In this document: positions 30,563 to 41,922 of the stretch, one piece after another
How the letters are laid out: every line of letters starts with the position of its first letter
How positions within the stretch are numbered: the first letter of the stretch is position 1
From: a virus
Reading direction: 5' to 3' (one strand)
DNA length: 64,000 nucleotides
Virus record (IMG/VR): IMGVR_UViG_3300023110_001773
Coordinates: 1-64,000 of that record
Notes under the pieces: model-generated
Told to the model about the DNA's origin: nothing
The model's input: the letters and a program-made list of their open reading frames with translations, nothing else
Database searches by the model: none
Made by a program: the position numbers and the translations under genes

Positions 30563-31081
30563 TTATGTCAACCTAACACGAACAGTTCCACCGTTATCGT
30601 AGTATGCTTGGCCGATTGCAATGCCAGCAGAAGCAGCAGATGATTCATTTGTATATGGGCCAGGCAGATTCCAACCAGAACCATCTTGCAGTTCTGTAAT
30701 TGTGGTAGCGGTGGCCAACTCTGTATCCAAGTTTGCGGTCTGTAAAAATGCAGATAAGTCAACTGTATTACCATTACTTATAGTTAAATCAGTACCAGCA
30801 ATACTAAGTGTCTGCGAATCAGTATTCTGTCCTGACAAAGAACTTAGATCAGCACTATTGCCACCAGAAATGGATAGAGTATTTGTCCCAGAATCCCAAG
30901 AAATTGTTTGTGAGGAACCACCCCCACCAGTGTTTATAATAACACCGCCTGGAGTAGAACCATCAGAAATTCTGAGAGTAGTGGTGGTGGGATCATAGAA
31001 AATTTCTCCAGCAGAACCCACAAAGGTGGTTGCGTCAGACCCACCCAATTGTTCTACGAAATTTCTAAATACAGTAGTCAC
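30563..31081 (-). CDS. Tail-fibre-like or virion beta-rich protein (172 aa)
   Basis: It starts at a GTG overlapping the previous TAG (TAGTG), with GGTGG upstream. VGSAGEIFYDPTTTTLRISD and GTPGGVIINTGGGGSS are typical of phage fibre or decoration modules; the middle repeats SQTLSIAGTDLTISNGNTVD-like beta strands. Probably virion surface. Confidence 0.75.
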   Translation of the reverse strand: MTTVFRNFVEQLGGSDATTFVGSAGEIFYDPTTTTLRISDGSTPGGVIINTGGGGSSQTISWDSGTNTLSISGGNSADLSSLSGQNTDSQTLSIAGTDLTISNGNTVDLSAFLQTANLDTELATATTITELQDGSGWNLPGPYTNESSAASAGIAIGQAYYDNGGTVRVRLT

Positions 31082-31365
31082 TAGCAGTTCCACCTTCTTC
31101 TTGCGGCCTTACCTCTTTCGCCTGTCCAACTACGAGATCGAGCGCAGAATGATTTGCGTCTCTTTGCGTCTTTGCTACCAGGCTTTAGTTTACTGGGCGG
31201 AGTAGTAACTGCGGTTTGCAATTTAGAGCCTGGGTTTTGGCGGCGATACTTTTCGACACCTTTTTTGGTTAAGCCAGCACCTTTGCTAACAGGAAGTTTA
31301 TGACCACCCTTGACGGTCATACCCTTCATACCTTCTTCGCCCAAAAATTCTAGGAAAGTTTTCAT
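31081..31365 (-). CDS. DUF6321-like conserved protein (94 aa)
   Basis: GAGLTKKGVEKYRRQNPGSK, LQTAVTTPPSKLKPGSKDAK and RRKSFCARSRSW match the conserved block I know as DUF6321 in marine phages. Strongly basic. A related block is embedded in the large protein upstream (31362-33674). Function unknown. Confidence 0.8.
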   Translation of the reverse strand: MKTFLEFLGEEGMKGMTVKGGHKLPVSKGAGLTKKGVEKYRRQNPGSKLQTAVTTPPSKLKPGSKDAKRRKSFCARSRSWTGERGKAARRRWNC

Positions 31366-33674
31366 TTCTTTTTCACCTTAAATTTCTTAGCCTTTTGTGC
31401 CGAAGCAGAAGACTTTGCGGATGAAGCTTTATACTTCTTCGCCTTCTGTGGTTTTTTGTTGGTAGATGTAAGTCGTTTCAATTCATTCTTTCTAATGATT
31501 GGAACCATTCTCTGTGCAAGTCTAGAGATCAGTCCTGTAAATCGTTTTGACATAGCCTCAATTCTAGCCTTTTCGGCAGGAGGCATGGAAGACATGTCTC
31601 TCCCTCTAGCAAGTCTGGACTTAATCATGTTTCTTGCACCACGAGTTGCCCTTCTCTTAACCCTAGCAGGATCGGCGGCTCTCCTAGATGCTCTCATTCT
31701 AGCAACTTTGAGTTTCTGTCTGTTTCTTCTAGCGTTAAAACGCCTCTTCATTCTACCTTGAATAGACAGGGCTTCAAGAATGTCCACGTTGTCGTGAATA
31801 TCTGATTCTTCATCGTCATCTTCTTCTGCTGAATCAAAGTCTTCTAATTCTTCTGAATCGTACATACCCAAACCTATCATCTCATCAAAATCCATATTGT
31901 CAATTTGAACTTCCATGTCGGCAATATCTTCCGATGTGAAGATAGAATCAACATCCATTTCCAAAACTTCCATCTCTTCTTCACATCCACAGTGTTCTTT
32001 TATTTTTAGTTTATCAAGAACCATCTGTCTAGCTTTTTGGCCAAGGTCTTTGAAGTGATATAGGTTTTCACTATCCTTTGTGTGTTTCTTACCAGTCATA
32101 ACTTGTCCATCGTGGGCGTGTTGATCACCCTTCCATTCAGTACCATCTTTCTTATAGTGACCATCGGTTTTCCACGAATGATTCTCACCTTCTTCGATCT
32201 TTGTTTTGTAGTGATATTTGTTGGTGGTTTGATTTTTCTTGGTAGTAGAGCCTGGTTCGCCTGGAGTCAAGGCCTTGAAGTATTGTGTACCTTCTGGTCT
32301 TCCCCACTCGTATCGACTAATCTGTTTGTCTTCCTTCTGATACATTTTTGCCAGAGTTCTAGCATCAACCTTGTCGGAAATCGTTCTTGCTACTTGTGCA
32401 GCATAGTATTCAATACCGTGTTTGAGTTTGCCGCCACCTTCTCTCTTCTTTCTATCGATAATAGGTTTCAGAGTTTTGAGTGCGGTGTTATAGTGAACTC
32501 TATGAACAGTTTTGGCAAGTGGGTCTTTCATCCACTGAAATGTTTCTTTTTGAGTTTTTGAGGAATCAACTGCTTTTGCAGAAGTATCCTTCATTTTCTT
32601 GATCATATCCGTATAAAACTTTTGACGGGCTTCCAAATCTATACCGTGGTGAGTTTTGAGTCGTCTATTGAGACGTTCTGCTGCAGAAAGTTTTGCTGCC
32701 TCTTTGACATCCGTCTTGACCATGATGGGTTTACCACCCTTGCCCTTTCTATCGGCAACGGGGTCTTTTCTTCTCTTGCGTCTGGCAGAAGTCGCCCTAT
32801 CGTCCTTGTCCATACTGTGTGCCTTTTGTCTCGGCATACACTTGGGTTTACCTTCGCCAGGCTCTCTTGCACATTGACCTTTGATTTCTCCATCCGTACC
32901 TACACGAACCCAATCACCTTTGGGATGATCTTTACTAAACCAATTACGGAGGTCTTCTCTTATGCCCCTCTGTTGTTTTTGGTCACGAATCCATCGTTGA
33001 GCGATATAATTATGGGAAGTTTTTACCCACCGACCAACCTTGCGATAGGCGTGCATAATTCCACTTTGATAGTCTGAACCCTCTGAGTTATCAATAATAA
33101 CAAAATCGTTTCCAAACAAGTTCTGAAACTTACCAATATTCTTTTGTGTTTCTTTCCACATGAAACCCAGTGAAACATTGTCAATAGTTCTGGCTCGATT
33201 TGCATTTCTTTTTCTAGCAGTCTCTCTGTCAGCATTGACAAAAATCATCATTGTCTGGTAACCTAGAGTCTCAAGTGCGTTTTTCTGTTTTTCTATCTTA
33301 GCGTAATCTTTACCAGTACCGTCAATGACAAGACCAAGACGCCCTTCAATATATTGGTCTTGCCTTTTATTAGTTATGTATTTTGCTCGGTCACGCATCG
33401 CCTGACCTTTTGGGCTAGAGATGAAGTCAGTAATTGCTTTTTTCGCCGGGTCTCTTCTAGAAGAGTATGATTGCATAACTCCAGCTTTCTTTAATGCATT
33501 CTCAAACGCATCATCAGAGTTGATAGTCTTTAACCCAAAAGTAGACAGTGCAGTCTGTCCAACGACAAATGACTTACCGCTACCAGGCCCGCCGGCTAAG
33601 AAAACCGCTTTGAAGATGGCAGGGTCATTGACACCTTCTTCTAGAGGTAGAAAATCTTTGAAAGTCTTATCCAT
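31362..33674 (-). CDS. P-loop kinase fused to basic phage modules (770 aa)
   Basis: N-terminal P-loop domain with AVFLAGGPGSGKSFVVGQ (residues 24-40) and VIDGTGKDYAKI, in the style of zeta-toxin or AAA-type kinases. Then comes a DUF5872/DUF6321-like block (FSKDHPKGDWVRVGTDGEIK, CAREPGEGKPKCMPRQKAHS), a helical middle, an acidic stretch (about 590-650) and a very Arg/Lys-rich C-terminus. A TATAAATA element ends 6 nt before the ATG and no Shine-Dalgarno is visible. Probably a late gene; the kinase substrate is unknown. Confidence 0.8.
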   Translation of the reverse strand: MDKTFKDFLPLEEGVNDPAIFKAVFLAGGPGSGKSFVVGQTALSTFGLKTINSDDAFENALKKAGVMQSYSSRRDPAKKAITDFISSPKGQAMRDRAKYITNKRQDQYIEGRLGLVIDGTGKDYAKIEKQKNALETLGYQTMMIFVNADRETARKRNANRARTIDNVSLGFMWKETQKNIGKFQNLFGNDFVIIDNSEGSDYQSGIMHAYRKVGRWVKTSHNYIAQRWIRDQKQQRGIREDLRNWFSKDHPKGDWVRVGTDGEIKGQCAREPGEGKPKCMPRQKAHSMDKDDRATSARRKRRKDPVADRKGKGGKPIMVKTDVKEAAKLSAAERLNRRLKTHHGIDLEARQKFYTDMIKKMKDTSAKAVDSSKTQKETFQWMKDPLAKTVHRVHYNTALKTLKPIIDRKKREGGGKLKHGIEYYAAQVARTISDKVDARTLAKMYQKEDKQISRYEWGRPEGTQYFKALTPGEPGSTTKKNQTTNKYHYKTKIEEGENHSWKTDGHYKKDGTEWKGDQHAHDGQVMTGKKHTKDSENLYHFKDLGQKARQMVLDKLKIKEHCGCEEEMEVLEMDVDSIFTSEDIADMEVQIDNMDFDEMIGLGMYDSEELEDFDSAEEDDDEESDIHDNVDILEALSIQGRMKRRFNARRNRQKLKVARMRASRRAADPARVKRRATRGARNMIKSRLARGRDMSSMPPAEKARIEAMSKRFTGLISRLAQRMVPIIRKNELKRLTSTNKKPQKAKKYKASSAKSSASAQKAKKFKVKKK

Positions 33675-33680
33675 AAGGAC

Positions 33681-33688
33681 TATTTATA
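33681..33688 (-). promoter_or_regulatory. Late promoter TATAAATA abutting an ATG
   Basis: Exact TATAAATA with 6 nt (GTCCTT) before the ATG at 33674; the predicted start of transcription is at or beside the start codon. Confidence 0.75.
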
Positions 33689-33899: not shown

Positions 33900-34267
33900 T
33901 TCATTCTACTCCCAGCTACGGCAAGTGCCTCTTCTACTATAGAGGAAATATTTCCCCACTTGATTCTACAATAACCCTCAGACGGGTCTTGTCTGTTTCT
34001 CAACTCAGTGGTTAGATCATGAATCTGTGTATAGATTTTTTGATTTGTTTCGTTCATGGTATGTTCTGAATACTTTTCCAAGAAAGCAGAATAAGACCAT
34101 GCCAGTTGAATCTGGTCTGAGGAACAATCCTTTGTGTTTTCTGAAATTACACCCAAGTGTACCAAATTACCATATTCCACATTATCAAACTTATCTGGTA
34201 TTAAATTGCTAAGGCTAGAACACCCAACCAATACCGTTGTTAAAACACCAACTAAAAAACCTTTCAT
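33896..34267 (-). CDS. Small lipoprotein next to the lysozyme gene (123 aa)
   Basis: Signal peptide ending in the lipobox LVGC (MKGFLVGVLTTVLVGCSSLS), so the mature Cys would be lipidated. The mature part is soluble and helical with two further Cys. It overlaps the lysozyme gene by 4 bp. A role in lysis or in the periplasm is possible, but a better spanin pair lies at 41174-41909. Confidence 0.75.
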   Translation of the reverse strand: MKGFLVGVLTTVLVGCSSLSNLIPDKFDNVEYGNLVHLGVISENTKDCSSDQIQLAWSYSAFLEKYSEHTMNETNQKIYTQIHDLTTELRNRQDPSEGYCRIKWGNISSIVEEALAVAGSRMK

Positions 34268-34710
34268 ACTGACTCCAAACGACTCATCAACCTCTCTGCT
34301 CTGTTGGTGACCTGTTTATACCACAAAGAATCTCTTCCCTCTACTGCGGCATTTTTCCAATCACCCTCTAAGAGAGCTTCATTCATTTTTTTAAACTTGG
34401 ATAATCGGGTACGTCCCATATTAAACATCATGTTGACCAATATCTGCTGGACTTCATCGGGAAAATCTCGAAAACACCCCTCCCCGTATAAAGCATCACA
34501 TTCTCGGATTGCTGTCTCCAAATCTCTATCAAATACCTCTCTGACTCTTTCTTCGTCCACTGGAGTTCCAATTGGTTTTCCGATCTCCTCGTCACCCTCA
34601 ACGATGAGGTGTCCGACTCCGAAAGTAGGATATCCAAGGTGATCATTGTAGATTTCATACACTACACCCTCGTCTATCTTTAATTGTTCGTATACTGCCT
34701 CTCTGTTCAT
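34264..34710 (-). CDS. e: T4-type lysozyme (GH24 endolysin)
   Basis: 148 aa. KIDEGVVYEIYNDHLGYPTF then GVGHL aligns with the T4 lysozyme active site: Glu in DEG, Asp in YND and Thr in PTFGVGHL. NMMFNMGRTRLSKFKKM and NRAERLMSRL match the C-terminal lobe. No signal peptide, so it would need a holin for export. It cleaves peptidoglycan at lysis. Confidence 0.93.
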   Translation of the reverse strand: MNREAVYEQLKIDEGVVYEIYNDHLGYPTFGVGHLIVEGDEEIGKPIGTPVDEERVREVFDRDLETAIRECDALYGEGCFRDFPDEVQQILVNMMFNMGRTRLSKFKKMNEALLEGDWKNAAVEGRDSLWYKQVTNRAERLMSRLESV

Positions 34711-35351
34711 TTATTTGACTCCTTCAGAAACATTGAAAAGGACATTCTCACTTGGTCTTCATGAAGACCCATACCTTTTCTGGTAGCATGGAACAATTTT
34801 TTTGCCTCTTCATGAGAGGTGTTCTTATGCAAACCAGACTTAAAAGATTTATAATCATTGTTAGATGCGTGAGATCGCATCTTTGTTCCACTTATTCCAG
34901 CAACACCCGAAGCATCAGGATCACGAGCACCAGCAGATACAACTTTGAGGTGCTTAAACTTATAATATCCGTGAGAACCCTTTTTGCCATTATACTTGTC
35001 TGCAAGTTTCTGGAATTCATGAACACGATCTGATCCTGCCACCATTGTGACATGGGTGTGACCCTCTTGGTGCATTTTACTGAGGTGTGCAAAAAAGTGA
35101 GGATGGGATTGCGAAGATGCTTCAAACTTTCCGTGGGGATGAACATGTTTGAGATACCTCAATTTTTGTTTTGCTGAGAGCGGGTTTTTGTGTTTGTCCT
35201 GAGAGTGACTAACTATAACTCTATGATCAGCATTCCTCGATTTTGCTTCTGCATGAACCTTGTCTACCAATTTACTGTGACCAGCAGTAGGCGGATTCAT
35301 TCTTCCAAATGCAAACACGATATGTTTTTCTTTTTCTTCTTTTATTCTCAT
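34707..35351 (-). CDS. Nucleotidyltransferase-fold protein, NMNAT/cytidylyltransferase-like
   Basis: 214 aa. FGRMNPPTAGHSKLVDKV supplies the HxGH-type motif (TAGH) and GISGTKMRSH the C-terminal ISSTxxR-like motif. Such enzymes adenylate NMN or cytidylate small phosphates. The start at 35351 is an ATGA overlap with the ligase-like gene upstream, suggesting a paired function. Confidence 0.8.
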   Translation of the reverse strand: MRIKEEKEKHIVFAFGRMNPPTAGHSKLVDKVHAEAKSRNADHRVIVSHSQDKHKNPLSAKQKLRYLKHVHPHGKFEASSQSHPHFFAHLSKMHQEGHTHVTMVAGSDRVHEFQKLADKYNGKKGSHGYYKFKHLKVVSAGARDPDASGVAGISGTKMRSHASNNDYKSFKSGLHKNTSHEEAKKLFHATRKGMGLHEDQVRMSFSMFLKESNK

Positions 35352-36607
35352 CTGTCCCACGCCTTGATTGCAGTGAAATTATTGTAACTGAATTCCATGC
35401 GGTCAACAAGTTTAACTGCATTACCACCAACTCTATCGATAGCAACATAACCTTCTGGATTGACAACCTTGAATCCCTGTTTGGTGCGAACAAAAGTATC
35501 CATCAACTGTTTGATAGAATTTAGTTTCCTCACAATAATCATCTTCGCATCTACCAGAGCATTTTGAAAAGCAACAATATTTCCAAGTAAAACCCTATGT
35601 TTTTTTATTTCTCTGAGAGTTTCTACTTTCTTTTTCTCCACTCTCTTCTTTGCATCGGGGGTCTTTAGTTTATTAGCAGCAAGGTCAAACTTTTCCGACA
35701 CCCAAGTTTCATAACCAGAAACATGGGTGGAAACATTGGCAATTTTCTCTCCAACCCTAACTTTGGAGTTATTGTATGTTTTGAGTGTAGCGCCAGTAGT
35801 TTTACTATCAGCTTCCAAAGCAGACTGCAATCTCATAAAATTCTTTAACTGTACAGCATCGATTTTGCGAAATAACTTTCCTGCCTCGGAAAGTTTTGCA
35901 GTTACCGATGCAGTTTCAGATTTTGTAAAGGTAGCAGTGCCACTTTCATCACGATAACTAGCATCATCCATCCACACACTTTTTATTTTTTTGAGACCAC
36001 TGATATTTGCACCAAAAGACGCTTGCATATTTTGCAAACTGTTGCCAGTATATGTGGTATGCCATACAACACCAATTCTCGCAGCCCTTATCTGATTGTC
36101 AAGATCAGAACCACGGGGAACTGCATAAACGATTGTATTTGGTTGAAATGTTGTATACCTAACATTATCAATGGTCTCGGTTTCAAGGGAACCAGAGGTA
36201 AACATCAAATCACCCTGTAGAACTCCCCTGATACCGAGTTTGCTAAATTCTTCTAATGCGATACTAAAAGGAATTTTCAATGCTTGTGGTAGTTTAGCAT
36301 CGTCTTGTATTTCTTTTTTTGTCTTATATAGTAGCGGTGTTTTGTTGAACACAGACTTCTTTGCGACAAAAAACTTCCCATCCGAGGGGTCTACACCAGC
36401 AAAGATAGCAGGGGCCCCATCCCACTTCACTGTCATGTGAACAGAGGAACGAGAACTACCAGAAAGCATATCACGCAAAGACTGTAAAAAATTAATTGCG
36501 CCCCTAGCCCCACCAATTCCGAAATTAATAATTTCGTCTTCTAGGTGTTCTAGGTGAAGATTCTTCCCTTGGGCATCTTCATTTAAATAGGATGAAAAAC
36601 TATACAT
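35348..36607 (-). CDS. Ligase-fold nucleotidyltransferase-like protein (DUF6267-like)
   Basis: 419 aa. VKWDGAPAIFAG (Lys at residue 61) looks like the KxDG active-site motif of ATP-dependent RNA/DNA ligases; GVLQGDLMFTSGS and NPEGYVAID...VKLVDR could be motifs IV and V. FVAKKSVFNKTPLLY fits between. This would be a divergent polynucleotide ligase, or an RNA-end modifier, paired with an NMNAT-like gene. It has a TATAAATA element 5 nt before the ATG and no Shine-Dalgarno sequence. Confidence 0.7.
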   Translation of the reverse strand: MYSFSSYLNEDAQGKNLHLEHLEDEIINFGIGGARGAINFLQSLRDMLSGSSRSSVHMTVKWDGAPAIFAGVDPSDGKFFVAKKSVFNKTPLLYKTKKEIQDDAKLPQALKIPFSIALEEFSKLGIRGVLQGDLMFTSGSLETETIDNVRYTTFQPNTIVYAVPRGSDLDNQIRAARIGVVWHTTYTGNSLQNMQASFGANISGLKKIKSVWMDDASYRDESGTATFTKSETASVTAKLSEAGKLFRKIDAVQLKNFMRLQSALEADSKTTGATLKTYNNSKVRVGEKIANVSTHVSGYETWVSEKFDLAANKLKTPDAKKRVEKKKVETLREIKKHRVLLGNIVAFQNALVDAKMIIVRKLNSIKQLMDTFVRTKQGFKVVNPEGYVAIDRVGGNAVKLVDRMEFSYNNFTAIKAWDR

Positions 36608-36612
36608 ACCAC

Positions 36613-36620
36613 TATTTATA
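36613..36620 (-). promoter_or_regulatory. Late promoter TATAAATA abutting an ATG
   Basis: Exact TATAAATA followed by GTGGT and the ATG at 36607; predicted leaderless late transcript. Confidence 0.75.
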
Positions 36621-38437: not shown

Positions 38438-38514
<77 letters not shown>

Positions 38515-40869: not shown

Positions 40870-41196
40870 TTATTTACCTTTACTAAAAGCCTGTGCGCCA
40901 AAGAAAGCGGCAACAATACCAGCAACAGCAACAAAATAAGTAGGTGCCATGTCGCCAAGAGTACCTTGTGCTTGATCAAGACCGGCGAGAGAAGCAATAA
41001 CCACTGCAAACGGGTAAAGCAACATTCCAAAGAGGGCAAACCAAGCCATCTTTCGTTGACTGTCTCGCATGGCATCCTGATCTTCAAGTTCTTTCCTCTT
41101 GAATTCCATGTACATCGCATGTTCTTCTGCGCTTACTTTACCATCACCGTTGGTGTCGGCTGGATGAAATTCTTTACTCGTTGTTTCTTCCGTCAT
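40870..41196 (-). CDS. EF-hand membrane protein (108 aa)
   Basis: ADTNGDGKVSAEEHAMYM is a canonical EF-hand loop, followed by two hydrophobic helices (WFALFGMLLYPFAVVIASLA and YFVAVAGIVAAFFGAQAF). GAGGAAG before the ATG at 41196 sets the start inside the end of the o-spanin-like gene. Possibly a holin-like or Ca2+-responsive membrane protein; given the neighbouring spanin pair, a lysis role is conceivable. Confidence 0.72.
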   Translation of the reverse strand: MTEETTSKEFHPADTNGDGKVSAEEHAMYMEFKRKELEDQDAMRDSQRKMAWFALFGMLLYPFAVVIASLAGLDQAQGTLGDMAPTYFVAVAGIVAAFFGAQAFSKGK

Positions 41197-41593
41197 CTGT
41201 AACTTCCTCTTTAGGTTCTTCATCATTTGAAGTCACAGTACGATAATATATAATCACTTCTCTAGTTTCTTTTACAAACCTCTTGATTTCTTGGAGGTTG
41301 TAAGCCATTAGTTCGTAATCGCCTGGGGTCATTGCAAAGAATACACCGCCAGTTTCTTTTTGAATTCGCTGCATGAACTCTTCGATATTCTTTTCAGACA
41401 CCACATACCAATTGGGGTCTTTCATGTCGATGGGTCTCGGCATGACGGGATGCTGAATTGGAATCTTCATCTCGACAGTTCTAATTTCAACTTCTCTGGG
41501 CGCCTGTTTCATCAGCGCACATCCACTAAGGATCAGGATCGAAGTCGTAATTACTGTCGCTTTCCAAACTGTCGAAAACTTCTTTGGTAGCAT
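41174..41593 (-). CDS. Outer-membrane spanin-like lipoprotein
   Basis: 139 aa with lipobox ILSGC (residues about 20-24) and a Pro-rich mature start (QHPVMPRPIDMKDPNW). It begins inside the preceding membrane protein gene in another frame (68-bp overlap), the arrangement of Rz/Rz1 spanins. It would join the outer membrane to the inner-membrane partner at lysis. Confidence 0.75.
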   Translation of the reverse strand: MLPKKFSTVWKATVITTSILILSGCALMKQAPREVEIRTVEMKIPIQHPVMPRPIDMKDPNWYVVSEKNIEEFMQRIQKETGGVFFAMTPGDYELMAYNLQEIKRFVKETREVIIYYRTVTSNDEEPKEEVTDDGRNNE

Positions 41594-41909
41594 TATTAAC
41601 TCTCGGTTCTATTAAGCCTGGTTTTGCAGCGGCCAGTTTAGACAAATCATGTCTACGAAAAATATCCAAATACCGATCTCTTTCAGCAATAATCTCTGCA
41701 TTTTTGGATGTCAAATCCATGAGAGCCTGTGCTTGCAATTGGTACTGACTATTCATTTTATCTATGGTTTCATCTTGGGTTTGAGTCTTGAGTTCCAACG
41801 CCATGTTGTATTCTCTCAACTCAATGAGCTCAGCTTGGGTCTGGGTGTAGTAGAGATACCCTACCGCACCGCCCGCAAGAATGACACCAAATAGTATTTT
41901 ACTAAACAT
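41526..41909 (-). CDS. Inner-membrane spanin-like protein
   Basis: 127 aa. One N-terminal membrane helix (ILFGVILAGGAVGYLYY) followed by a periplasmic coiled coil (LIELREYNMALELKTQTQDE...). Together with the overlapping lipoprotein it fits an Rz/Rz1 pair. A TATAAATA element ends 5 nt before its ATG and no Shine-Dalgarno is present. Confidence 0.75.
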   Translation of the reverse strand: MFSKILFGVILAGGAVGYLYYTQTQAELIELREYNMALELKTQTQDETIDKMNSQYQLQAQALMDLTSKNAEIIAERDRYLDIFRRHDLSKLAAAKPGLIEPRVNNATKEVFDSLESDSNYDFDPDP

Positions 41910-41914
41910 AATTA

Positions 41915-41922
41915 TATTTATA
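41915..41922 (-). promoter_or_regulatory. Late promoter TATAAATA abutting an ATG
   Basis: Exact TATAAATA then TAATT and the ATG at 41909. It overlaps the helicase stop codon. Fits late expression of the spanin pair. Confidence 0.8.

Follow-up and report, generated by a model that had tools for sequence, protein, structure and literature searches.

A DUF6267 protein with a predicted ligase fold and a putative capsid-targeting sequence, encoded beside a nucleotidyltransferase in a T4-like virus

The gene pair and the conserved motifs of DUF6267

The window, i.e. the whole stretch of 64,000 nucleotides analysed here (positions 1 to 64,000 of IMG/VR record IMGVR_UViG_3300023110_001773, a viral sequence 165,637 bases long), contains on its minus strand an open reading frame (ORF) of 419 aa that belongs to the Pfam family DUF6267 (PF19782), as evident from a score of 332.6 bits and an E value of 5e-99, at a curated cut-off of 27 bits. 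Its TGA stop codon overlaps the start codon of a gene for an NMNAT-like nucleotidyltransferase (NTase), as a first-pass annotation made from the sequence had pointed out. The phage is T4-like, since the window encodes UvsX, a DnaB-like helicase and a T4-type DNA polymerase upstream of the pair.

35348..36607, minus strand: DUF6267 ORF of 419 aa, encoding a divergent protein of the ligase fold (covalent nucleotidyltransferase) as predicted from the Pfam match, structural models and fold comparison
34707..35351, minus strand: CTP_transf_like (NMNAT-like) nucleotidyltransferase, 214 aa from its ATG
35348..35351, minus strand: ATGA overlap of the DUF6267 stop (TGA) and the NTase start (ATG), read in the sequence
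36416..36427, minus strand: motif I, KWDG, aa 61-64, with K61 as the putative lysyl-AMP site
36356..36358, minus strand: K84, invariant, at the presumed motif Ia position
36206..36217, minus strand: QGDL, aa 131-134 (GDL, 132-134), at the motif III position, with Asp and not Glu
35444..35455, minus strand: motif IV, EGYV, aa 385-388
35399..35413, minus strand: motif V, KLVDR, aa 399-403 (KLV, 399-401), with the invariant R403
36536..36556, minus strand: HLEHLED, aa 18-24, family signature H-x-E-H-x-E-D, N-terminal to motif I
35519..35923, minus strand: helical insertion that separates motifs IIIa and IV, aa 229-363, reduced in length in the short forms

The motif names (I, Ia, III, IIIa, IV and V) are those of the ligase literature, and are presumed to apply to DUF6267.

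The 419-aa ORF also belongs to phrog_455, a family of unknown function that covers both the DUF6267 and the NTase domains. Relatives of DUF6267 were detected by tblastn (E 0.1) in 468 of 50,697 phage records, 453 of which are named Synechococcus, Cyanophage or Prochlorococcus, and further relatives were taken from scans of IMG/VR, each giving the best 80 loci at most. The family comprises long forms of about 400 aa and short forms of about 295-320 aa, in which a smaller segment separates motifs IIIa and IV. Alignment A1 holds 42 sequences of both forms at 25-70% identity, one per 70% cluster and the window protein included; they come from 4, 7 and 27 of the 80 loci of three scans and 3 of the 6 loci of another, plus the window. 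Alignment A3 holds 69 distant, mostly short relatives (66 of the 80 loci of one scan and three of another), and three short sequences are common to both sets, with different starts.

K61, D63, G64, K84, G132, D133, E385, G386, V388, K399 and R403 are invariant in 42/42 sequences of A1, as are H183, T184, N280, K355, F406, N410 and F411. The equivalents of K61, D63, G64, K84, D133 (D105 in A3), E385, G386, K399 and R403 are unchanged in 69/69 distant relatives, and the counterparts of H183, T184, N280, K355, F406, N410 and F411 are likewise fixed across that set. The KWDG, GDL, EGYV and KLV motifs listed by the first-pass annotation are all present in the ORF, with core residues that do not vary in either alignment. 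Two hallmarks of the ligase superfamily are found in DUF6267, namely KxDG with an invariant Lys at motif I and EG followed by a hydrophobic residue at motif IV.

Predicted ligase fold and distribution relative to known ligases

When the predicted structure of the window protein (mean pLDDT 83.6) was compared by VIA-align, the eight best rows were RNA ligases, at Z values from 6.9 down to 6.2, and unrelated helical proteins came close behind them (Z 6.2 to 6.0). For a modelled short relative of 295 aa (locus L272; pLDDT 93.0, pTM 0.87), all 50 PDB rows listed by VIA are RNA or DNA ligases (Z 8.9 to 5.6). The best of these is the RNA ligase of Naegleria, with 177 residues aligned at 3.6 Å and 15% identity (Z 8.9); the Z values are 8.2, 7.1 and 6.3 for T4 Rnl1, T4 Rnl2 and human LIG1, respectively. 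Best Z values of 7 to 8 are often seen with models that match nothing clearly, and for the predicted fold the consistency of the rows weighs more than the Z value. With plain Foldseek, the first 46 rows for the L272 model are ligases or a capping enzyme, the best at E 0.053. CorA and carbonic anhydrases led the plain Foldseek list for the full-length model, none with an E below 0.001. BFVD returned 12 matches below 0.001, and those that could be identified are relatives or fusions. Motif invariance and the two models back the divergent ligase fold proposed in the first-pass annotation; the lack of such a fold, which that annotation had named as ground for giving up the proposal, was not the outcome of the fold predictions. 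From these models DUF6267 is predicted with high confidence to have a ligase fold, and would probably also have ligase activity. The chain stops about 20 residues past motif V, too soon for an OB or C-terminal domain to follow.

In the predicted fold of the nucleotidyltransferase domain, DUF6267 resembles the RNA ligase of Naegleria gruberi (NgrRnl; PDB 5cot, 6vt0 to 6vtg). Both have Lys-x-Asp-Gly and Glu-Gly, and in both the motif IV Glu lies 14 residues from the motif V Lys (E385-K399 in DUF6267 and, according to PDB titles, E312-K326 in NgrRnl). Unlike NgrRnl, DUF6267 has no counterpart of the NgrRnl N-terminal domain, carries Asp at motif III and has a single Lys at motif V, and its H-x-E-H-x-E-D signature and the helical insertion before motif IV are absent from NgrRnl. 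T4 Rnl1 and Rnl2 share the predicted fold and belong to the same T4-like kind of phage, but DUF6267 is without their C-terminal domain and shows no profile similarity to Rnl2. The role of DUF6267 is possibly like that of the T4 DNA ligase gp30, as it is present where gp30 is missing; unlike gp30, it has no visible OB domain, and its fold match to DNA ligases is the weaker one. A full-text literature search, in which subscription papers are mostly outside coverage, gave no paper on DUF6267.

T4 has its own DNA and RNA ligases, whereas the marine cyanobacterial T4-like phages seemed to have none. Among 15 records searched, DUF6267 occurs in 14 and is absent from T4, while RNA_ligase (PF09414) occurs in T4 only (1/15), so that all 14 DUF6267 records, the window's included, are without it. 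The DNA ligase PF01068 was found among these 15 records in T4 and DLP_6, and not in the record of the window. It occurs in 4 of 14 IMG/VR records with DUF6267, some being fragments, and is absent from 23 of 28 DUF6267 records overall; the NAD-dependent DNA ligase PF01653 was found in 0/29 records. Conversely, T4-like records with Rnl2 contain PF01068 in 28/28 cases and DUF6267 in 0/28, this contrast set being 28 of 52 loci picked for carrying Rnl2, and the DUF6267 profile having detected 14 records elsewhere. DUF6267 is nearly as frequent as UvsX among cyanophage records (368 vs 375 named 'Synechococcus', 61 vs 61 named 'Cyanophage'). When the phage collection was queried with three ligases, the cyanophage names stayed outside the ten commonest, which implies fewer than about 38, 49 and 14 records per name as compared to 375 and 61 for UvsX. 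According to a passage of a 2010 review (PMC2984593), g30 homologues were not found in cyanomyoviruses, distant ones being either unidentified or absent. A family that is near-universal in marine relatives of T4 and has a predicted ligase fold may answer where the missing ligase is.

N-terminal peptide, virion data and the proposed role

The first ten residues of the DUF6267 protein and the DNA immediately upstream of its gene carry two further elements.

36578..36607, minus strand: MYSFSSYLNE, aa 1-10, putative cleavable capsid-targeting sequence (the tag)
36613..36620, minus strand: TATAAATA, late promoter element of T4 type, 5 nt upstream of the DUF6267 ATG

The peptide fits the pattern M-x-x-F/L-x-x-F/Y-L/I-x-E, and T4 ipII and ipIII begin with MKTYQEFIAE. 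A capsid-targeting sequence of this kind, removed by the gp21 protease, is described in the relevant passages of two reviews (PMC9958956, PMC5694885), and a prohead protease of gp21 type is encoded in the window's record (PF03420, E 2.5e-41). The phage of the window resembles T4, with its internal proteins IPI, IPII and IPIII, in combining such a protease with an N-terminal M-x-x-F/Y-x-x-F/Y-L/I-x-E, as found in IPII and IPIII. The difference from the T4 internal proteins is that the putative cargo has an enzyme-like fold.

A tag-type start is present in 137 of 246 scored family members. The cyanophage long forms begin directly after the tag position (MSKNTHLEHLED) and are untagged, and the tag is absent from the short forms (0/77 in one scan). 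Among other ORFs near DUF6267 it occurs in 114 of 1244 as compared to 2.15 in shuffles, many of these being related NTases; by family, 16 of 109 neighbour families have at least one tagged member, including a HAD-type phosphatase and a P-loop kinase. Tagged HAD-type phosphatases lie upstream of DUF6267 in two loci (L204 2457-3065, L211 2845-3450).

TATAAATA, the T4 late promoter element, occurs seven times in the window, each time on the coding strand, where 2.56 copies would be expected for the two strands together. In the loci of relatives it occurs 371 times on the forward strand vs 19 on the reverse. A copy lies no more than 60 nt from the start in 48/136 tagged, 7/100 untagged long and 0/9 short DUF6267 genes. 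A promoter 5 nt from the start codon would leave little or no mRNA leader.

Tagged NTases were detected in the virion proteomes of three cyanophages, S-SZBM1, S-CREM2 and S-SCSM1, and their N-termini read MRFRQFIIE, MKNFSSFLTE and MKSFLQFLKE; the authors of two of the three papers state that carry-over could not be excluded. That DUF6267, untagged in these three phages, was not found in their virions agrees with a targeting role of the peptide, and gives no sign that the untagged partner enters the particle together with the tagged NTase. The peptide might instead be an ordinary helix. Such a reading would agree with the chance-level result of a record-wide start-codon scan and with the low confidence of residues 1-18 in the model, but it is unlikely in view of the strict spacing, the agreement with T4 ipII and ipIII, the recurrence of the tag across unrelated neighbour families and its presence on three virion NTases. 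Judged from these sequence features, packaging of DUF6267 in the virion of the window's phage, which the first-pass annotation had not suggested, appears rather more probable than its absence from the particle. Literature searches on a capsid-targeting sequence in cyanophages and on a virion-packaged ligase, again with subscription papers mostly uncovered, gave nothing on point.

Two other virion proteins of these cyanophages may be recorded here. S-CREM2 gp156 (L267 5013-5726), a hypothetical virion protein (PMC10665884, table 3), matches NTP_transf_2 (E 3.4e-4) and adds a nucleotidyltransferase of another kind to the particle. S-SCSM1_93 (L269 36627-36836), a virion protein of 69 aa, has a C-terminal tag-like FKEFLEYIE.

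With a probability of roughly 0.6, DUF6267 is best explained as an OB-less polynucleotide ligase that is packaged here and stands in for the gp30 and Rnl ligases missing from marine T4-like phages. K61 would take up AMP and hand it to a 5'-phosphate end, which would then be sealed to a 3'-OH, the substrate being RNA, DNA or both. In the phage of the window the protein would be expressed late from its own T4-type promoter, its first ten residues would draw it into the prohead, and the gp21-type protease would cut after E10. The protein may then be injected with the DNA and seal breaks at entry; if the tagged form is packaged, a nucleic-acid-sealing enzyme would be delivered with the genome. The first-pass annotation had suggested an RNA- or NAD-linked repair or capping system against host tRNA cleavage or NAD depletion; the genome context favours replacement of the missing ligases over capping, tRNA or NAD roles.

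Several observations weigh against the proposed packaged stand-in. At the assigned motif III site every aligned DUF6267 has Asp and not Glu, and motif V reads K-L-V and lacks the second Lys of KxK, the first Lys and a later Arg being invariant. Foldseek with either model gave nothing at E < 0.001, the PDB ligase matches being non-significant; phmmer and profile searches of solved structures (PDB) gave no credible match and no ligase link, and hhalign of DUF6267 with Rnl2 relatives (alignment A5, 21 of the 52 loci from which the contrast set came) gave a probability of 1.1% or less. PF01068 is present in 5/28 DUF6267 records, or in 4/21 of those of at least 130 kb, and the distribution contrast lies largely between clades and is not a set of independent events. 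The same passage of the 2010 review judged absence of g30 from cyanomyoviruses likelier, since the host ligase can substitute. The start-codon tag scan of the whole record gave 7 as compared to 4.25, which is not above chance, and untagged DUF6267 is missing from two virion tables and, for the third phage, is not among the proteins that its record marks as belonging to the virion.

The departures at motifs III and V, the confinement of the tag to part of the family and the lack of a sequence-level tie to active ligases would suit a ligase-fold protein without ligase activity, retained for DNA binding or as an internal protein of the head. Neither alignment (42 and 69 sequences) shows any variation at the nucleotide-binding residues, tagged or not, and this alternative is held to be quite improbable.

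T4 Pnkp and Rnl1 mend RNA cut by anti-phage nucleases of the host. In a comparable manner, DUF6267 might be an RNA-repair ligase that acts on tRNA or rRNA cleaved by such nucleases, together with the P-loop kinase and the HAD phosphatase encoded nearby. This would be consistent with RNA ligases as the nearest folds, with the lack of an OB domain past motif V, with the kinase at 31362-33674 here and a kinase adjoining the DUF6267-NTase pair in HTVC008M, and with the tagged phosphatase in L204 and L211. The kinase and phosphatase are inconstant neighbours of the putative ligase, and its distribution is complementary to that of DNA ligase as much as to that of RNA ligase; an RNA-repair role is considered rather unlikely.

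The nucleotidyltransferase and other genes of the locus

The match of the NTase to PF01467 (CTP_transf_like, 6.9e-5) exceeds the curated cut-off. The NTase also matches phrog_3041 ('cytidyltransferase', 2.8e-64) and, far more weakly, the phage NMNAT family phrog_3462 (6.9e-4). Its structure-profile rows are weak, namely a UPF0348 protein (0.04), S-layer proteins and a NadR-family row of the PDB profiles (E 0.41). Profile comparison of DUF6267 with the NTase revealed no similarity. The program-made ORF list begins the gene at a GTG 9 bases upstream (35360); among homologous pairs, 43 are called at an overlap of -4 and 71 at -13 with the longer start.

35277..35297, minus strand: NPPTAGH (T/HxGH, HIGH-type) motif of the NTase, with N, PP and GH invariant in alignment A4
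34875..34895, minus strand: ISGTKMR (ISSTxxR-type) motif of the NTase, with S154 and R159 invariant in A4
34719..34739, minus strand: C-terminal tag-like FSMFLKE of the NTase (uncertain)

The locus survey covered 258 DUF6267 ORF hits in 256 loci and the window, locus L081 being a duplicate of the window. A same-strand NTase is present in the fetched DNA for 206 of the 258 hits, downstream in 205 and overlapping in 124; 25 hits have none despite at least 1.5 kb of downstream sequence, one of these being itself fused. Natural DUF6267-NTase fusions occur in S-PM2 (591 aa) and metaG-MbCM1 (728 aa). The metaG-MbCM1 fusion (L264 3995-6181) is annotated as 'NrdB ribonucleotide reductase A subunit' and has the tag MKKFSAFLSEAER mid-protein. 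Short-form DUF6267 is mostly alone, with an NTase in the flank of 2 of 80 loci and otherwise uninformative neighbours, and in S-CREM2 and S-SCSM1 the DUF6267 and NTase genes are far apart. The coupling of ligase and NTase proposed in the first-pass annotation is supported here by the ATGA overlap, the syntenic pairs and the two fusions, but is not a general rule for the family.

As part of the packaged stand-in ligase proposed above, the NTase would act in the same pathway as DUF6267. It may instead be a separate, virion-carried NAD-salvage enzyme, linked to DUF6267 merely by gene order. This would agree with the separate genes of S-CREM2 and S-SCSM1, with the NMNAT-like label in the virion papers, and with an occurrence of the NTase in 533 phage records (E 0.001), jumbo phages included, vs 468 for DUF6267 (E 0.1). 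The two natural fusions, the span of phrog_455 over both domains and the downstream, same-strand position in nearly all loci with an NTase speak for a closer link, and the separate-enzyme explanation is held to be the less probable one, although a serious contender.

The NTase also suggests a more elaborate and highly improbable scheme, in which a virion-delivered ligase is fed by NAD+: K61 would take AMP with release of NMN, and the NTase would remake NAD+ from NMN and ATP. The H-x-E-H-x-E-D signature, which may sit where the leaving-group end of the donor is expected, would bind the NMN half, and with the kinase and phosphatase the pair would form a packaged end-repair kit active before phage gene expression.

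The cyanophage virion NMNAT-like/cytidylyltransferases of S-SZBM1, S-CREM2 and S-SCSM1 belong to the same family as the window's NTase, which differs from them in lacking an N-terminal tag. NTases of the window's clade have F-x-x-F/Y-L/I at the C-terminus in 41/41 cases, followed by x-E in 27/41, and 26 of the 27 occurrences of the C-terminal tag-like end among 2170 ORFs are NTases of this clade. As longer NTases have a conserved stretch close to this position in the alignment, the end may be structural. Among 138 adjacent pairs, the N-terminal tag is on the NTase only in 86, on DUF6267 only in 49, on both in none and on neither in 3; a rule of one tag per pair was dropped, as the NTases of the window's clade carry the C-terminal tag-like end.

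Two tag-related ORFs lie further downstream of the pair, the first with TATAAATA upstream of it at 33681-33688(-).

31362..33674, minus strand: P-loop kinase (Zeta_toxin/AAA_33) ORF, 770 aa, starting MDKTFKDFLPLEE, possible co-packaged partner
31081..31365, minus strand: DUF6321 ORF with a tag-like start, MKTFLEFLGEE

A phage lysozyme gene (34264-34710) shares 4 bases with the NTase gene, so that the pair belongs to a run of overlapping late-type genes. Elsewhere in the window, an ORF at 30563-31093 weakly resembles the N-terminal domain of the major tropism determinant, under the Pfam cut-off, and a tRNA-Arg (tct) gene lies at 38438-38514. Two overlapping ORFs at 41174-41909 match Rz-like spanins, with TATAAATA just upstream at 41915-41922(-).

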